The notes under the pieces are model-generated. The model saw only the letters and a list, made by a program, of their open reading frames with translations. It ran no database searches and had not been told where the DNA came from. A program made the position numbers and the translations under genes. Source: Halostagnicola larsenii XH-48 (GTDB lineage Archaea > Halobacteriota > Halobacteria > Halobacteriales > Natrialbaceae). From it: a stretch of DNA of 64,000 bases. The number at the start of each line of letters is the position of its first letter. The first letter of the stretch is position 1. The stretch covers positions 1 through 64,000 of the forward strand of contig NZ_CP007057.1 of the NCBI RefSeq assembly GCF_000517625.1. The letters are read 5' to 3'. Of the stretch, positions 38,293-47,108 are shown one piece after another.

Positions 38293-41200
38293 TTACTCGC
38301 TATCTGCCAGGGATTCGGATTCTGATTCGTCGGCAGCTAACTCCTCCGGTGATGTCGGCTCAACGCGCGGTTCCTCCCCGAGGGGCTCGAGACGGACGTT
38401 CGTCACCTTGTACGCCGGAATCTTCGTTTGCGGATCGAACTCCTCTTTCGTCAGTTTGTTGACCGCGCCGTGGACGAAGTGCATCGGGATGAACAGCACG
38501 TCCGGGCCGGACGTCTCCTCGAGGGTCGCCCGGACGACGATTTCGCCCTGCCGCGACTCGACGCGAACGTACTCGTCGTCGGCGATGCCGAGTCGTTCGG
38601 CCGCTTCCGGATGGACGGACACGAAGCTCTCGGGCACCTGTTTCATCGCCGCCACCGATCGACGAGTCATCGATCCCGTGTGCCAGTGATAGAGCACGCG
38701 GCCGGTAGAGAGCGTGAACGGGTACTCCTCGCTCGGGCCGGGGAAGTCTTCCTCGGGCAGTTCGGACGGGACGAATCGCGCCAGCCCATCGTCGAAGTGG
38801 AACTCGTTCTCGTAGAGATACGGCGTTCCGGGATGGTCCTCGTCCCAGCACGGCCACTGCAACCCGTTCTCTCTCGCCTCGAGGCGCTCGTGCGTGACGC
38901 CGCCGTAGATGGGGACGAGTTCGTTGATCTCGTCCATGATTTCGGCCGGCGACTCGTAGTTCCAATCGAATCCCATCCGGCCGGCCAGGGCCTGCAGGAT
39001 GGCGGCGTCCGTCCGCGCCTCGCCGGGAGAATCGACGGCCGGTCTGACGAGCTGGATTCGGCGTTCGGTGTTCGTGACGGTGCCGTACTTTTCGGCCAGC
39101 GAAGCCGCCGGTAGCACGACGTCTGCGTGTTTCGCCGTCTCGGTCATGAACAGCTCCTGAACCACGAGGAAGTCGAGCGCCGCCAACGCTTCCTCGGCGT
39201 GATCGATGTCGGGTTCCGACAGCGCGGGATTCTCGCCGACGATGTACATTCCTCGAAGGTCGACGTTTTCGGGAGTGTATCCCTCGCCGGCGCCAGGATC
39301 GTCGGTACCGCGATCGCCCACGCCGGATTCGGGGTAATCCCCACCGTAGGCGTCGGTTCCCGTTCCGCCGGAAACCGTCTGTCCGACGGTTGGAACGGCG
39401 CTGAACATTTCGGTGATCCGCAGGCCGACCTGGTTCGGTGGACGGACTCCCCAGACCTCCTCGAACGCGTCCAACACGCGCTCGTCGGTGACGGACTGGT
39501 AGCCGGGGAGGTTGTTGGGGATCGGACCCATGTCTCCGCCGCCGCCCTGAACGTTGTTCTGGCCGCGAAACGGGGAGAACCCCGATCGCGGTTTCCCCAG
39601 ATGGCCACAAAGCAGTCCCAGGTTGGCGATCGCGAGCGCATTCTGCGTACCGTGTGAGTGCTGAGTCAGTCCCATCGCCCACCCGTAGACGCAGGTGTCC
39701 GACTGTGCGATCGTCTCGGCCGCGTTCACGAGGTCATCCGGCGCGACGCCGGAGACGTCTTCGACCATCTCGAGCGTGTAGGGGTCGACGGTCTCCCGTA
39801 GTTCGTCGAAGTGTTTGGTGCGTTCCTCGACGAATTCCTCGTCGTAGAGATCCTCCTCGATGATGTGGCGAATCATCCCGTTGATCCAGGCGATGTCCGT
39901 GCCGGGTTTAGTCCGGGTGTACTGGTCCGCGTGATCGGCGATGGTCATCTGTCTCGGGTCGAAGACGAACAGATCCGCGCCGTCTCGAACGTTCTGTACG
40001 ATCCGCGTCGCCAACACCGGGTGGCTCTCGGTCGTGTTCGAGCCGGTAATGAGATAGCAGTCAGTCTCGGCGATGTCCTCGTTGATACGGTTGGTCATCG
40101 CACCGTAGCCGACCGTCTGCTTTAACGCGGCGACGGTCGAGGAGTGACAGAGCCGCGTGCAGTTGTCGACGTGGGGCGTCTCGAGCACCTGTCGGGCGAA
40201 TTTCTGGGCGAGGAAGTTCTCCTCGTTGGTCGCCTTCGACGAGGACGTCACCGCCAGCGAGTCCGCGCCGTACTCCTCGCGGATGTCGGTCAGGCGTTCG
40301 GCGATGCGCTCGAGCGCCTCGTCCCACGAGGCCTCGCGGAACTCGCCGTCCTTCCGGATCAGCGGCGTCGTCAGCCGCTCGTCGGAGCCGACGAAGTCGT
40401 ATTCGAACTTTCCTTTCACGCACGTCGAGAAGTCGTTGGCCGGGGTTTGTTCCGGATCGGCCGGCCGGGTGCCGAGGATTTCGCCGTCCTTGCCGTAGAG
40501 GTTGAATCGACAGCCGACGCCGCAGTAGGTACAGGTCGTATCGGCCACCGTAATATTCCGCTTTCTGGCGCCGCTGACGACCTGCGCGCCGTCGAACAAC
40601 TGACCGGTCGTCAGCGACTTCTCGGCGAGGTGTTCGGCGGCGTGTTCGACCGTAGAGAGCGCGTCGCTCGTCGCTCTCCCGGACAGCGCCGACGCGTTTC
40701 GCTTTGCTTTCTTCATGAACTCGGCGACGCCGGAGAGTCCGCGGTCGGTGGTCCGTGACTCGAGGCGGTCGTCATCTACATTCCCGCCCGCCGAATCCGG
40801 CACCTCGCGGTTTGGCACGTCGGCCGTGTCAGCCGTCTCGACGGGTTTTCCCTCTTGCACTTTTCCGATGGAGTTCTTCTGCGTGAATCCCGGAAGCGGG
40901 ATCGTCGTCGCGTCGACCAGACCGTCCTCCACGAGCGCCCCGGTCGGGCAGACGGTGACGCAGTGTCCACAGGAGATACACGTCGACTCCTCCATCGTGT
41001 TCGCGTCGGGTTTCTGGAAGTCGATGTGCGCGTCGTTCCCGTTACCCGACATCCGGAGGACGCCAGCGACTTGCACGTCGTTACAGGCGTCGATGCACCG
41101 GCTGCAGAGGATGCACTTGTTGCGGTCGATCTGGATAACGTTCGTATCGTCGATGGGGTCGTACGCGTCTCGGTCGCTGAATACGCCGTACCGCGGCTTG

Positions 41201-41739
41201 TTCACGCCGTGTTCGATGGCAGCGTCCTGCAGTTCACACCGGCCGTTCTGGCCGCAGGTCGTACACCGAAGATTGTGATTGCCGAGGACGAGGTCGAGGT
41301 TGACATCGCGGGCTTCCGCCGCATCGGGCGCGTCCGTCGATATCGTGAGTCCGTCCGCGGCCGGGAAGCTACACGACGGAACGAGGCCGTGCTCGTCCGT
41401 TTCGACCATGCACGTTCGGCACGCGCCGTACGGGCCGACGTTATCGGACTGATCGGTTCCGCGGTCGTACGAACACAGCGCCGGCACGTCCGATTCCGTC
41501 TCGACCATCTCGAGCGCGTCGAGAAGCGTCGATCCGGGCGAGACCGCGACGGGGTGTCCGTCGACGGTCACCGTCGTCATATCGTCGCCTCGGACGCCGA
41601 TGTCGGGATCGTTCGCCCTCCCCGTACGGAAGTCGTCCGCCAGCGGCGTACTCGGCTGCGGATCGTCGATCTCCGGCACGCCGGGCATCGCTTCGGCCGG
41701 ACTGTGCTCGGTCGGTCCAGGGGGATCGTCCATACTCAT
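38293..41739 (-). CDS. fdhA: Formate dehydrogenase alpha subunit (Mo/W-bisMGD, Cys type)
   Basis: 1148 aa. Domain order: NuoG-like [2Fe-2S] domain with Cys 89, 107, 110 and 123; a His/Cys cluster around NLRCTTCGQNGRCEL (154-170); two [4Fe-4S] motifs (CILCSRCIDAC 209-219 and CISCGHCVTVC 254-264); a linker of about 110 residues; then the molybdopterin domain with CTYCGVGC (403-410) plus Cys 440. The active-site position is Cys 531 in CTRLCHSSTV, so it is not a selenoprotein. It oxidises formate to CO2. The ATG at 41739 overlaps the upstream stop (ATGA). Confidence 0.95.
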   Translation of the reverse strand: MSMDDPPGPTEHSPAEAMPGVPEIDDPQPSTPLADDFRTGRANDPDIGVRGDDMTTVTVDGHPVAVSPGSTLLDALEMVETESDVPALCSYDRGTDQSDNVGPYGACRTCMVETDEHGLVPSCSFPAADGLTISTDAPDAAEARDVNLDLVLGNHNLRCTTCGQNGRCELQDAAIEHGVNKPRYGVFSDRDAYDPIDDTNVIQIDRNKCILCSRCIDACNDVQVAGVLRMSGNGNDAHIDFQKPDANTMEESTCISCGHCVTVCPTGALVEDGLVDATTIPLPGFTQKNSIGKVQEGKPVETADTADVPNREVPDSAGGNVDDDRLESRTTDRGLSGVAEFMKKAKRNASALSGRATSDALSTVEHAAEHLAEKSLTTGQLFDGAQVVSGARKRNITVADTTCTYCGVGCRFNLYGKDGEILGTRPADPEQTPANDFSTCVKGKFEYDFVGSDERLTTPLIRKDGEFREASWDEALERIAERLTDIREEYGADSLAVTSSSKATNEENFLAQKFARQVLETPHVDNCTRLCHSSTVAALKQTVGYGAMTNRINEDIAETDCYLITGSNTTESHPVLATRIVQNVRDGADLFVFDPRQMTIADHADQYTRTKPGTDIAWINGMIRHIIEEDLYDEEFVEERTKHFDELRETVDPYTLEMVEDVSGVAPDDLVNAAETIAQSDTCVYGWAMGLTQHSHGTQNALAIANLGLLCGHLGKPRSGFSPFRGQNNVQGGGGDMGPIPNNLPGYQSVTDERVLDAFEEVWGVRPPNQVGLRITEMFSAVPTVGQTVSGGTGTDAYGGDYPESGVGDRGTDDPGAGEGYTPENVDLRGMYIVGENPALSEPDIDHAEEALAALDFLVVQELFMTETAKHADVVLPAASLAEKYGTVTNTERRIQLVRPAVDSPGEARTDAAILQALAGRMGFDWNYESPAEIMDEINELVPIYGGVTHERLEARENGLQWPCWDEDHPGTPYLYENEFHFDDGLARFVPSELPEEDFPGPSEEYPFTLSTGRVLYHWHTGSMTRRSVAAMKQVPESFVSVHPEAAERLGIADDEYVRVESRQGEIVVRATLEETSGPDVLFIPMHFVHGAVNKLTKEEFDPQTKIPAYKVTNVRLEPLGEEPRVEPTSPEELAADESESESLADSE

Positions 41740-43406
41740 GATCGGGACACCTCGCAAGCGCCGCTCGGACACCGACCGGCGGCGTGAGCTTTGAACTCGG
41801 TCTCGAACTCCTCGAGCGCCGTATCAACGCTTCGGCCGGCCGACCGGCCGACGTCACAGAGACTCGATGATTGCATGACGCGGGCGAGTTCGCGTATCAT
41901 GTCGTCCTGGTAGGTCCCGTCGTAAACGTCTCGAAGGAGATGCAGAAGCTGCTTCGAGCCCTCGCGGCCGGGGAAGCACCGGCCACAGTTCTCCTCGCTG
42001 GCGAACCGCACGCGCTCGCCGGCCGCCGCCACAGCGCACCGACTCTGGTCGAACAGTTCGACGACGCCCTCGGTTCCGAGGTCGGCGTTGGACAGTGCCA
42101 TCGCGCTCACGGGCTGGTCGATCGATCGGGTAAACCCCCCGAACTGACCGCCCACACACGCCATTTTGAACCGCCCCGCTCCCGCAAAGAGGTCGCGGGC
42201 GACACCGAGCGAACTGCCGGTCACAAGCTCCACGGTCGCCGGCGACTCGACGTCGCCGGTAACCGTGATCACTCGCGTCCCCGGATCGGCGTCCGCCGGG
42301 TCGAATTCGCCGGGCTCGAGTAGCGCCGCACGAACCTGCGCGAACGTCCGAGGCGTGGATACGACCGTCGGCCGACCGTACAGCCCGTGGCGAGCGGGGC
42401 CGGGCGGACGGAGCCGCGCTTCTAGCCGGTCGTTCCCCTCCAGGGCCTCGAGCGCCATGGTGTATTCGCCCGCGATGTACTCGTTCGGACCGGCGACGAC
42501 CTGCGGGGCGGCCTCGTCGTCTACACCCTCGTCTGCACTGCCCTCGGCCTCGAGCGCAGCGACGGCGGTCGCCGCCCGGCGGGTTCGTCGCCGGATGAGG
42601 TCGTCATCCTCGTTGGTGTATACGACGACGTCGCTCGAACTCGCACCCACGATTTCGGCGACGGCCAGCGCCCCATCGAGTACTGTTGCCGGCGATCCGC
42701 CGAGTAGCGTCCGATCGGTCCGGTTACGGCTATCGCTCTCGTTCGCGTTCACTACTACTACCGGATCGTCCGTCGCCTCTCGGACGATCTCGAGGTCGTC
42801 GGCAAGCGGCGTGTCCTGGCTCGCGTCACCTCGCCCGCGCCCGAGAACACCGATGGTGGCGAGCTGTTCGAGCGCGGCGTTCGGATCTTCTCGCGCCACC
42901 GCCACAGCGCCCGAGTCCGCCGGTGCAGCGCGTTCTGGGTCAGTCCAGCCGCATCGACTGAGGATGCGGCGCGTTCCGACGGCGAGCGGACCGTCCGGCG
43001 GCAGTGGAAGCGCGTCGATGTCGGGGTCGTGCTCGACGACCCACGCGGGCTCGTCCTCCCCGATGGAGCCGGATTCAGCCCGCTCCACGAGCGAACGTAC
43101 CCGCTCAGTGGACGGATGCGGATAGTACGCAGTCCGTCCATCACGTGTGACGAGAACGAGCGGCTCGAGCCCGTGTACCCCGGTGGTGCCGACCTCGAGC
43201 ACGTTCGCCTCCGAAGCGGCAGCCTGAGCCGTCTGGAGAACCTTTCGCCCCCGTTCCAGCGGGTGCGGTTCGTCCGGTTCGGCTGTCCCCTGGGTATCTC
43301 GAGCGACACTCGGCGGGTCACCGTATCCGACCGTGACGCGGACAGTTGGCCGGCTTTCGTGCGAATCGGTAGCAGTATTCACATGGGGCGTCCACCGAGT
43401 ACGCAC
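41736..43406 (-). CDS. NuoF-like electron-transfer partner of formate dehydrogenase
   Basis: 556 aa. Residues 40-130 resemble the thioredoxin-like [2Fe-2S] domain but without its cysteines; residues 160-460 follow the NuoF FMN/NAD and SLBB folds (GPNEYIAGEYTMALEALEGN, PTVVSTPRTFAQVRAALLEP, VTGDVESPATVELVTGSSLG); residues 485-535 hold the Fe-S region ENCGRCFPGREGSKQLLHLL with a distant Cys in SSLCDVG. The canonical CGKC-x2-C is CGRC-x2-G here, so one cluster ligand is missing. It should pass electrons from formate to NAD or another acceptor. Coupled to fdhA by ATGA. Confidence 0.88.
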   Translation of the reverse strand: MRTRWTPHVNTATDSHESRPTVRVTVGYGDPPSVARDTQGTAEPDEPHPLERGRKVLQTAQAAASEANVLEVGTTGVHGLEPLVLVTRDGRTAYYPHPSTERVRSLVERAESGSIGEDEPAWVVEHDPDIDALPLPPDGPLAVGTRRILSRCGWTDPERAAPADSGAVAVAREDPNAALEQLATIGVLGRGRGDASQDTPLADDLEIVREATDDPVVVVNANESDSRNRTDRTLLGGSPATVLDGALAVAEIVGASSSDVVVYTNEDDDLIRRRTRRAATAVAALEAEGSADEGVDDEAAPQVVAGPNEYIAGEYTMALEALEGNDRLEARLRPPGPARHGLYGRPTVVSTPRTFAQVRAALLEPGEFDPADADPGTRVITVTGDVESPATVELVTGSSLGVARDLFAGAGRFKMACVGGQFGGFTRSIDQPVSAMALSNADLGTEGVVELFDQSRCAVAAAGERVRFASEENCGRCFPGREGSKQLLHLLRDVYDGTYQDDMIRELARVMQSSSLCDVGRSAGRSVDTALEEFETEFKAHAAGRCPSGACEVSRS

Positions 43407-43814: not shown

Positions 43815-44567
43815 CTACGATCGTTTCGTATCTATCTCAAAGGGGAATTCATCCAAACTCTCCTCGTTGGACGTTGGAAGGAGATATTGTTTCCACTCTC
43901 GAGTATCGGGATCGCCGTAATCTCCGATGTCGGGATGCGGTGCGTCATCGTCGTAGTCCTCTAACCGATCTCTGATAACCGAACGAGCACGTCGGCCTTC
44001 TTTCGTGTCTCCGGTAACATCCTCGAGGATTCTCCGTGGCTGGACCGTTATTTCCAGTCCGTCTTGCGTATACCTGCTCTTTCGATTCGTATAGAACGGA
44101 GCGCGCCCGACGATGAACATGGATTCTCCAGCGAAGCAAAATTCCCACTCAGGATCATCCGGGTCCGCGGGAACGTCGCTGGGCCATGGCTCCGGATCCC
44201 GTTCGTTGAGGAACTCGAGAACTCTCCAGAACTGATCACGATATCTCTGCTCGCGCTGTTCCTCGGGCGGAGGCTTGAAAAATATCACCAGAGTCGTTCG
44301 TTCGGCTATCGACTGATACCGCTCGAGGTATTGTCGCAACCCCTCTCTCACTTTGAGGAGTGCGTCGCGGTCGCCAACGTCTCCCACGAAGAGGTATCGG
44401 GCGGTATGGTTACGTTCAGCGTTCACCGCGAAGTGACACGGATACCGAGTGCTCTCCATCGTCTCTTTGAACTCGAGATATCGCTTTTTCTTCCACGCGA
44501 GTAGCTCTCCCGTTTCTATCGCGTCTTGCAATTCGGATCGATCGAACAGTAGCCCCGTCTCCGTCAT
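43815..44567 (-). CDS. YqcI/YcgG family protein (GntA-like N-oxygenase candidate)
   Basis: 250 aa, end-to-end match to the YqcI/YcgG family pattern: ESTRYPCHFAVNAERNHTAR (38-57), DQFWRVLEFLNERDPEPWPS (111-130), DPEWEFCFAGESMFIVGRAP (138-157), NRKSRY (161-166), QPRRILEDVTG (176-186), IRDRLEDYDDDAPHPDIGDY (198-217). One member, GntA, is a heme-dependent enzyme that N-hydroxylates an arginine-derived guanidine; this supports, but does not prove, an N-oxygenase role. Last gene of a four-gene operon, 23 bp after the sulfate-activation gene. Confidence 0.85.
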   Translation of the reverse strand: MTETGLLFDRSELQDAIETGELLAWKKKRYLEFKETMESTRYPCHFAVNAERNHTARYLFVGDVGDRDALLKVREGLRQYLERYQSIAERTTLVIFFKPPPEEQREQRYRDQFWRVLEFLNERDPEPWPSDVPADPDDPEWEFCFAGESMFIVGRAPFYTNRKSRYTQDGLEITVQPRRILEDVTGDTKEGRRARSVIRDRLEDYDDDAPHPDIGDYGDPDTREWKQYLLPTSNEESLDEFPFEIDTKRS

Positions 44568-44590: not shown

Positions 44591-45442
44591 TCAGTCCTCG
44601 AAGTGCCGTCCCGCGAGGAGGTCGCTTTTCCCGTATTCCTCGCGCGTCTCGGTTCCGCTTATCTCTGCGACCTCATCGGGGACCGAGACGACCGAGTATC
44701 CGACGTTCCGCCCGATAGCGACGGTATCGACGTCCGGAATGATCATCGTCCGGACGTTCGGATAGTCCTCGTAGACGTCCTCGATTAGCTCTCGACGTTC
44801 CTGTGCAGTGAGTGGATTTTCCTCGCTGAGTTCGGTGTCGCGGATGGCGACGACGACGTCCTTTCCATTATCGGCGGCCGAATCGATGATCGTTCGGTGG
44901 CCATCGTGAAGCGGTTGCCACCGACCGATGAAAATGTGGCTCGGATCGAACTTGAGGTCCAGTTCCGCGTTAATCTTCTCGATGGTCTTTTCTTTCGAGT
45001 GTCTCGCCGTCCGAACTTCGAGTTCGATCTCCTCCGGCTCCTCGAACGGCGCATCAACACCGGTAAAGCCATCGATCTCTCCGCTGTGGGCTTGTTCGTA
45101 CATTCCCTTCACGTCGCGTTCTTCGCACACTTCGACGGGCGCGTTGACGTATACGAACGAGACGTCCTCGAGTTTCTCGGCGATCAGTTCCCGCTGAGAA
45201 CGGTACGGTGTGATGAACGACGCGACGACATCGAACCCCTGTTCGTTCAAGGCCTGTGCAACCCCGGCAGCTCGTCTGAGGTTCTCGGTTCGATCCTCCT
45301 TCGAAAACCCGAGATCGGAATTGAGGGTGTTCCGGAGATAATCGCCGTCCAGATGGACCGTATTCGGGCCGATCAACCCTTCGGCGAGCGTCGTCTTTCC
45401 GGAACACGGCAGTCCGAAGAGCCAGATGGTTTCTCCAGACAT
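44591..45442 (-). CDS. cysC: APS kinase fused to a HIGH-type nucleotidyltransferase
   Basis: 283 aa, two domains. Residues 1-160 are an adenylylsulfate kinase: P-loop GLPCSGKTTLA (10-20), LDGDYLR (31-37), GFSKEDRTENLRRAAG (45-60), SFITPYRSQR (75-84), KGMYEQAHSGEIDGFTG (112-128). Residues 168-275 are a cytidylyltransferase-like (HIGH) domain: GRWQPLHDGH (173-182), NPLTAQERRELIEDVYEDY, and an ISGTETREEYG closing motif. The kinase makes PAPS from APS. The second domain could supply APS, since ATP sulfurylase belongs to the same superfamily; this is inference. The start overlaps the previous stop (TAATG). Confidence 0.88.
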   Translation of the reverse strand: MSGETIWLFGLPCSGKTTLAEGLIGPNTVHLDGDYLRNTLNSDLGFSKEDRTENLRRAAGVAQALNEQGFDVVASFITPYRSQRELIAEKLEDVSFVYVNAPVEVCEERDVKGMYEQAHSGEIDGFTGVDAPFEEPEEIELEVRTARHSKEKTIEKINAELDLKFDPSHIFIGRWQPLHDGHRTIIDSAADNGKDVVVAIRDTELSEENPLTAQERRELIEDVYEDYPNVRTMIIPDVDTVAIGRNVGYSVVSVPDEVAEISGTETREEYGKSDLLAGRHFED

Positions 45443-45711
45443 TAATCGATCCCCTCCGTACGCCGAGTGAATCTATTTGCCTCTCTCCAAATCCTACCTG
45501 CAGTGGTGATTTCGGAGATACACGTCTCGAGCAGTTTCGACGTCGCATTCAGCGTGTTGTTGAATATGGGAATTGTCGTGTCTATCATACTCGTGAGGTT
45601 CACCGCCGTCGATCTCGTCGATCGCCAATCGTCGATGCCAGGGCGCCGATCGACGTGAGTCGCTTCGCCGCTGTCCCTATCCAGTTCTTTTGCCGTTCTG
45701 CTCAGATCCAT
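45442..45711 (-). CDS. Unknown 89-aa protein, coupled inside the sulfation operon
   Basis: MDLSRTAKELDRDSGEATHV ... MIDTTIPIFNNTLNATSKLL ... RFTRRTEGID. Its start lies 10 bp inside the sulfotransferase gene and its stop shares one base with the next start (TAATG), so both ends are translationally coupled. The N-terminal half is charged and probably disordered; the middle (about 40-75) is helix-forming and mildly hydrophobic. No family is recognised. A carrier, anchor or substrate peptide are all possible. Confidence 0.6.
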   Translation of the reverse strand: MDLSRTAKELDRDSGEATHVDRRPGIDDWRSTRSTAVNLTSMIDTTIPIFNNTLNATSKLLETCISEITTAGRIWREANRFTRRTEGID

Positions 45712-47108
45712 TCCCGTTCCTCCGTGTATTCCAGTTCCTCGAGTACCCCGGTATACGTCTCGTCGGCTCGCTCAAGCGCACTCATGACGAGGTCCTCCCT
45801 GTCTCGCCAGCGAGCGCGTCGCGGTTCTTTCGTCGTCATCACCTTATTTGGGCTTTCGACGTTCTCGGAAAGCAGCGCCGACTCACCGAGGTCCGCGAAT
45901 TCGACGATCTCCGTGATCGTGGACTCGGTATCGGTGAGAACGTCCTCGAACCTGACTCGAAGAACGTCCTCGAACGCGTCGCGACCGTCGAGAATATGGC
46001 GATGGGCCTGGGTCCACTGCATCAGACAGATGTCGATGAGGTTTCCTTCGCGAACCCACCCCGGCGGGAGATCGTAGCACCACAGCGAGCCATCGTATCC
46101 GTCGATGTCGAGATCGCCTACATCGTACGTCTGGAACCCCCTGTGCAACTGCCACCCGTCGTAGAGGCCGTTGATCGACGCCGCTGGGTTTCGTGTGAGG
46201 TGGACGACTTTGCTATCGGTCTCGGGAAATAGCTGCTCGCGGATCCACGGCAGTCGGTACGCGTCGCCGCTTGCTTTCAGGATGAGCGTCCGCTCGAAAT
46301 CGTCGACCGTGAGACCGCGCTTGTGCCTGTGCGAGGAGACGAACGGCCGGTCCTCGATAGTTTCGGTTTCGAACGGGCTGTCTGCGTCTCGCTCTGCATA
46401 CTCATCGTACTGCAATGGCGCGATTCCGAACCCCTCGAGTATCTTCTTCAGCGAGACCCCCTCGAGCAACTGTTCGCGTATCCGCTCGTATGGAAGCTCT
46501 CGATTCGGAAATTGCAACGGAAGCCGGACGAGCGTGTTGTCTACACGATGCGCTCGGTCGCCGGAGCGTTCGGTTGCACCGACTTCGGCGAGAAGATCCG
46601 TCAGGAGTTTTTCCCTATCGAACGATTCGAAGTCGGGCGGAACGACATCGGAATCGAACGCCGGGTAACAGATCCCGTTCAGCGTGTACCATCGGTCGTG
46701 TTCGCCATCGAGGCTACAGGTTCGTTCATGGTGTCGAAGGATATCGAAAAGGAGGCTACTCCCCCCTCTCGGAGCCGACGTGATAAACAGCACACTATCG
46801 AAGTCATCAACCCGATACTCCGAGAGAATCGATCGTTTCGCCTCCGAAATCACCTCGTTTTGTATCCGTTCGTAGTTCTGTGTGGCCTGCTCTCGGTGAT
46901 CGATCGGCGGATCTTCGAGACTCACCAGCCACCACCTTCCAGTGAGTCCGCCGAATTTCGCCGTTGTTGAAACCGATAGATCGATTCCATCGAACGTAGT
47001 CGCGCTGTCATAATTTGGTTGTTCGTCAACCAGTACCCCGGCAGCGGCTACCGGTTCCCTGTCGTGGGCTCGAGTGCTGCCAGACGAGATCGACGAGTAG
47101 GTGTACAC
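45702..47108 (-). CDS. PAPS-dependent sulfotransferase
   Basis: 468 aa. The 5-prime phosphosulfate-binding loop is LFITSAPRGGSSLLFDILRH (107-126; family P-R-S-G-[ST]-[ST]) and the 3-prime phosphate-binding segment is VVHLTRNPAASINGLYDGWQ (301-320). A C-terminal GEEREWI-like tail completes the Sulfotransfer fold. It transfers sulfate from PAPS to a hydroxyl or amino group of an unknown acceptor. Residues 1-100 are not conserved in the fold; a GTG at 47108 is the reported start and later GTGs are possible. First gene of the operon; AT-rich promoter region upstream. Confidence 0.85.
   Translation of the reverse strand: MYTYSSISSGSTRAHDREPVAAAGVLVDEQPNYDSATTFDGIDLSVSTTAKFGGLTGRWWLVSLEDPPIDHREQATQNYERIQNEVISEAKRSILSEYRVDDFDSVLFITSAPRGGSSLLFDILRHHERTCSLDGEHDRWYTLNGICYPAFDSDVVPPDFESFDREKLLTDLLAEVGATERSGDRAHRVDNTLVRLPLQFPNRELPYERIREQLLEGVSLKKILEGFGIAPLQYDEYAERDADSPFETETIEDRPFVSSHRHKRGLTVDDFERTLILKASGDAYRLPWIREQLFPETDSKVVHLTRNPAASINGLYDGWQLHRGFQTYDVGDLDIDGYDGSLWCYDLPPGWVREGNLIDICLMQWTQAHRHILDGRDAFEDVLRVRFEDVLTDTESTITEIVEFADLGESALLSENVESPNKVMTTKEPRRARWRDREDLVMSALERADETYTGVLEELEYTEEREWI

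Follow-up and report, generated by a model that had tools for sequence, protein, structure and literature searches.

The window analysed here, a stretch of 64,000 nucleotides of Halostagnicola larsenii DNA, contains an open reading frame at positions 44591-45442 whose predicted product of 283 amino acids consists of two domains, an N-terminal APS kinase and a C-terminal nucleotidyltransferase of the HIGH type (the NT domain). This reading frame, pointed out without its strand in a first-pass annotation of the letters alone, is borne out and lies on the minus strand. Its upstream partner is the gene for a PAPS-type sulfotransferase, and a gene of the YqcI/YcgG family starts 23 bp after it. The features discussed below are as follows:

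45702-46925, minus strand, sulfotransferase of 407 aa (PF13469, 1.8e-10; PRGGSS motif)
44591-45442, minus strand, fusion gene for APS kinase and HIGH nucleotidyltransferase (283 aa)
44957-45436, minus strand, APS kinase domain, residues 3-162 (PF01583, 2.7e-45; TIGR00455 above its cut-off)
45392-45415, minus strand, P-loop GLPCSGKT, residues 10-17 (from the sequence; nearly invariant in alignment A1)
44594-44938, minus strand, NT domain, residues 169-283, NadM-like HIGH type, no NMN-binding segment (PF01467, hhalign, AlphaFold/VIA)
44897-44926, minus strand, GRWQPLHDGH, residues 173-182 (all 38 archaeal and viral sequences share G, R, W, Q, P, H, G and H)
44837-44842, minus strand, R201-D202 of IRD, candidate anion-binding arginine (R invariant, D in at least 90% of the 38 sequences)
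44696-44713, minus strand, GRNVGY, residues 244-249, candidate second anion-binding arginine (G, R, V and G invariant in the 38 sequences)
44642-44662, minus strand, ISGTETR, residues 261-267 (S, T and R invariant in the 38 sequences)
43815-44567, minus strand, YqcI/YcgG heme N-hydroxylase family protein of 250 aa (PF08892, 9.2e-75)

Full-length homologues that are 72-93% identical are found in Natrinema, Natrialba, Haladaptatus, Halalkalicoccus, Halegenticoccus and Halocatena, the fusion occupies 20 loci in 19 of the 391 haloarchaeal genomes surveyed, and dN is about 1/10 to 1/5 of dS when computed separately for the kinase and NT domains. The fusion is thus not a product of chance, and purifying selection acts about equally strongly on both domains. 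The fusion gene of the window is a plasmid gene, and the cluster is plasmid-borne in several species. Database records call the gene plainly 'adenylyl-sulfate kinase', a label that conceals the NT domain. A search of open-licence papers found none on such a fusion or on an NMNAT-like sulfurylase, and the fusion is absent from the keyword-matched passages of a survey of archaeal gene fusions (PMC11237513). The AlphaFold model of the full-length protein (mean pLDDT 67) is too weak for the geometry of the two domains to be read from it.

Judged by a curated cut-off and by its lid motifs, the N-terminal domain is a true APS kinase. The Pfam model APS_kinase (PF01583) matches residues 3-143 with 154.6 bits against a cut-off of 21.1, and TIGR00455 (apsK) exceeds its cut-off of 138.7 with a score of 160.3. 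The domain aligns at residue level with 5cb6, 2gks and human PAPSS1, and among solved structures it comes closest to APS kinases and PAPS synthetases. The P-loop and the APS-binding motifs LDGD, LGFS, SFI.PY, RDVKG.Y and GFTG are all present and conserved in alignment A1, the substrate-lid motifs reading LGFS, SFITPY, RDVKGMY and GFTG.

The NT domain is about 115 residues long, and the Pfam model CTP_transf_like (PF01467) matches residues 170-230 with 38.4 bits against a cut-off of 21. It has the HxGH and ISxTxxR motifs and the Rossmann-like fold of the HIGH superfamily. In the alignment of 38 archaeal and viral sequences that serves as the NT profile, 18 columns never vary, namely those of GRWQP-H-GH, GR-VG and S-T--R (within ISxTxxR), the R of IRD and the P in each of NP and IPD. 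Both motifs read earlier, GRWQPLHDGH (residues 173-182) and ISGTETREEYG (residues 261-271), are found in the translation. The first-pass description of an APS kinase joined to an NMNAT-like HIGH domain, with no ATP sulfurylase of about 400 residues, also agrees with the profile comparisons, in which hhalign pairs the NT profile with haloarchaeal NadM at a probability of 98.7% and with haloarchaeal Sat at 5%, that is, with no detectable homology to the latter. In the fusion protein PF01747, the Sat family with its motifs QTRNxPHRAH and GRDHAG, has no match at E 0.1, and Pfam found no domains of the CysD/CysN type (PF01507, CysN GTPase). The nearest solved structure is an archaeal NMNAT. The AlphaFold model of the NT domain, with a mean pLDDT of 80 and a low-confidence last third, matches PPAT and NMNAT with VIA Z scores of 8-10 (top 10.0, PPAT), and ATP sulfurylase is absent from the Foldseek and VIA matches listed. 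From profile comparison and modelled fold, the NT domain is best described as a trimmed NadM-like HIGH nucleotidyltransferase and not as a relative of Sat or CysDN. The profile comparison with Sat gave no sign of a shared sulfate site, and the likeness of GRxVGY to GRDHAG of Sat is a resemblance in motif order only, not taken here as homology.

The top matches to NadM in profile and to PPAT and NMNAT in fold would also suit an ordinary nucleotidyltransferase for NMN, pantetheine phosphate or glycerol phosphate that was fused by chance and is unrelated to sulfate, but we regard this as very improbable. All models of cofactor-family nucleotidyltransferases score far below their cut-offs on the fusion protein (TIGR01527, archaeal NMNAT, 36.1 bits against 181.2). 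The NT domain shares the motifs GRxQPxHxGH and xSGTxIR and the HIGH Rossmann fold with NadM (MJ0541, 1f9a), but in the profile alignment the NMN-binding WV/SNNP segment of NadM (SVWV ... SNNPLV) is deleted, which disfavours NMN as the acceptor, and the domain has gained the invariant IRD, whose arginine is absent from NadM, as well as GRxVGY. The host also encodes a complete NadM of its own (L002, 259.8 bits), so that NAD synthesis does not depend on the NT domain. Elsewhere in the archaeal phylum, beyond the class Halobacteria, the NT profile found only NadM-type matches at the threshold used.

The argument for a sulfurylase starts from the need of APS kinases for a source of APS. Of the 391 haloarchaeal genomes, 11 encode the PF01747 ATP sulfurylase (Sat). 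APS kinase-like genes stand alone at 10 sites, and nine of these immediately adjoin Sat. Eighteen of the 19 fusion genomes have no PF01747 ATP sulfurylase, and in the sole exception (G336) Sat lies in a separate operon with an APS kinase of its own. This pairing pattern, fusion versus stand-alone kinase with Sat, gives a Fisher p of ~1e-7, uncorrected for kinship. The absence of Sat alone was rejected as evidence: Sat is rare throughout the class, occurring in 1 of the 19 fusion genomes and in 10 of the 372 others (p = 0.43), and its absence is by itself uninformative. The tenth stand-alone kinase, that of G210, differs at LGFS, SFITPY, RDVKGMY and GFTG and thus lacks the APS-specific residues. 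Since adjacency to Sat, fusion and the divergence of the G210 protein account for all cases, every haloarchaeal APS kinase-like gene is located beside a known sulfurylase, is fused to an NT domain or does not encode an APS kinase. At the G210 locus (L041, G210:C24), the CysC-like kinase gene is accompanied by a MobA-like nucleotidyltransferase gene and an amidotransferase-type ORF, an arrangement resembling the phosphoramidate genes of Campylobacter.

CysN did not exceed its cut-off in any of the 28 haloarchaeal genomes searched, and the full-length matches below it are read as EF-1A. The host genome, in which no recognised CysN was found, encodes a distant CysD-like PF01507 protein (L003 1219-2190, on C1) that scores 86 bits with NF003587, below the cut-off of 195, and is a caveat to the sulfurylase reading; its gene adjoins that of a WecB-like epimerase. 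Such a protein would fit an explanation in which the NT domain is a non-catalytic regulatory or structural module of the kinase, for instance for nucleotide sensing or oligomerisation, with APS supplied by an unrecognised haloarchaeal sulfurylase. Inactive, regulatory sulfurylase-like or kinase-like domains occur in other sulfate-activating enzymes, and the Microvirga relative described below lacks several NT motifs. We nevertheless give this explanation only a slight chance of being correct, as the catalytic motifs are all invariant across archaea and phages, the selection acting on the NT domain is like that on the kinase, and in phages NT is a gene in its own right.

A search of IMG/VR with the NT profile found 247 viral relatives, so that NT makes up a large and so far unrecognised phage family, and gene contexts were counted at the 80 best loci. 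At these 80 loci NT is usually free-standing, with about 100-140 residues, and in three cases forms one protein with an APS kinase-like domain. Of the 80 loci, 74 include an APS kinase-like gene, which at 72 is fused or at most 400 bp away on the same strand, and several of the six loci that lack it end at a contig edge. A sulfotransferase ORF is found at 59 of the 80, commonly in the order sulfotransferase-kinase-NT, and representative sulfotransferases were confirmed by Pfam. As a control, loci of viral NMNAT, which has the same fold, contain neither an APS kinase (0 of 17) nor a sulfotransferase (0 of 17), a difference that argues further against an ordinary nucleotidyltransferase. The viral NT loci are partly redundant; after clustering, the kinase is kept in 31 of 33 clusters at 85% identity, 14 of 16 at 70% and 8 of 8 at 60%. 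The phage sulfotransferases belong to varied families (Sulfotransfer_1, _2 and _3, as at L110 1950-2585, L128 3550-4233 and L108 1815-2366), and their genes neighbour those for sugar metabolism and glycosyltransferase-like proteins; the phage loci suggest sulfated glycans on virions or hosts. The earlier annotation had left it between a minimal sulfurylase and an enzyme for another acceptor, and it is the gene company in archaea and phages that makes ATP sulfurylase the most likely function of NT.

The main rival keeps the NT domain catalytic with a different acceptor, an anion or metabolite such as phosphoramidate, phosphonate, sulfite or similar; the kinase would phosphorylate the conjugate at its 3' position and the sulfotransferase-like enzyme would transfer the group, as in the O-methyl phosphoramidate pathway of Campylobacter. 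In that pathway, to which the fusion can be likened, a CysC-like kinase acts with a nucleotidyltransferase, although one whose fold is other than that of NT. The genes cj1415-cj1418 are needed for phosphoramidate synthesis (PMC3907429). CysC-like kinases with different substrates thus exist, the G210 kinase beside its MobA-like nucleotidyltransferase being a further example, and many phage partner kinases are shorter and diverged (55-90 bits), some without the APS lid. PHROG 10255 of Stenotrophomonas and Xanthomonas phages, annotated 'kinase', has the same two-domain architecture as the fusion and is about 25-29% identical to it end to end, but its kinase is shorter and has no APS lid. Against this rival, the fusion kinase, unlike the G210 relative of the Campylobacter kinase, retains the APS-specific residues, as do canonical phage partners such as that of L109 (PF01583, 7.9e-69; TIGR00455, 268.8 bits against 138.7). 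The partner proteins also belong to bona fide sulfotransferase Pfam families, and phosphoramidate genes were not seen at the fusion loci. An acceptor other than sulfate is consequently unlikely in our judgement.

The distribution in bacteria was sketched from plasmid and phage records. On a plasmid of Microvirga lotononidis (L161 4229-9764), a diverged kinase-NT fusion is located between a NodH-like sulfotransferase gene and a CysD/CysN pair (NodPQ-like), which in turn adjoins NodIJ-like transporter genes and whose CysN ends in DUF2061, without an APS kinase domain. The kinase of this fusion has retained its P-loop, and several of the invariant residues are missing from the NT domain (HESH, VRN, HGLDLGY, SPTAVQ), as expected, in this single case, if a canonical sulfurylase makes the NT domain redundant.

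In haloarchaea, a sulfotransferase of 407 residues with the PRGGSS-type or a closely similar motif adjoins the fusion at each of the 20 loci as well as at L012. The YqcI/YcgG gene is found at 16 of these 20, the window among them, and is usually directly downstream. Its product scores 60 bits with NF041366 (GntA), below the cut-off, and members of the family hydroxylate guanidine nitrogens (PMC12866846). Five loci (L152, L153, L155 and L159 of the 20, and L012) have instead a gene resembling arginine deiminase or dimethylargininase (ADI/DDAH) between the sulfotransferase and the fusion, followed at four of the five by an argininosuccinate synthase (ArgG)-like gene. Pieces of the DDAH-like gene are left at four others (L145, L146, L156 and L157), and no such relic is detectable in the gap at 45443-45701 of the window. 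Because both versions of the cluster point to arginine, the product is suggested to be an arginine- or guanidine-derived metabolite that is N-hydroxylated and sulfated. A reading as a defence system was dropped, PADLOC giving no match for the three genes. Beside the cluster (38293-43406, minus strand), a protein of 1159 aa that combines iron-sulfur domains of the NuoG type with an alpha region of formate dehydrogenase (TIGR01591 over its cut-off) adjoins a NuoF-like protein, apparently forming a soluble NAD-linked formate dehydrogenase.

Based on this gene context, we propose that the fusion protein is probably a compact bifunctional PAPS synthetase in which the NT domain acts as the ATP sulfurylase. 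HIGH enzymes catalyse nucleotidyl transfer to oxyanions, and Sat itself belongs to the HIGH superfamily; with the organic-substrate pocket lost, sulfate would be a chemically natural acceptor for the NT domain. The HxGH and ISxTxxR motifs would bind ATP, whose AMP, an adenylyl rather than a cytidylyl group, would be transferred to sulfate, which would probably be held by the family-specific R201 and R245, giving APS and pyrophosphate. The N-terminal kinase would then phosphorylate the 3'-OH of APS to form PAPS, and the fusion, or the tight pairing of the phage genes, may help to draw the sulfurylase reaction, which is highly unfavourable, towards its product. From PAPS, the adjacent sulfotransferase would sulfate its acceptor, perhaps the arginine- or guanidine-derived metabolite.

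Human PAPSS1/2, the Aquifex SAT/APS kinase (2gks) and CysN-CysC likewise combine a homologous kinase domain with an APS-forming partner, and bifunctional PAPS synthetases serve sulfotransferases, as is proposed for the fusion. Their second domain is a PF01747/PUA sulfurylase or a CysN GTPase, whereas that of the fusion is C-terminal, NadM-like and only about 115 residues long. The NT domain, probably new as a sulfurylase, may represent a third kind of ATP sulfurylase that arose from a NadM-like branch, independently of Sat and CysDN, and that always has an APS kinase as its companion and in most cases a sulfotransferase too, as a portable sulfation cassette carried by aquatic phages, plasmids of haloarchaea and certain bacteria; we hold this broader view to be somewhat better than even.

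If true, this would be a third enzyme solution to sulfate activation, at about 1/4 to 1/3 of the size of Sat, and the fusion would be, to the best of our knowledge, the smallest PAPS synthetase, a compact PAPS generator for biotechnology. Many phages would carry complete cassettes for sulfate activation and sulfation that are now annotated 'cytidyltransferase' or 'kinase'. PAPS is the universal sulfate donor, and in haloarchaea without Sat its supply to the neighbouring sulfotransferase would be explained by one small protein.
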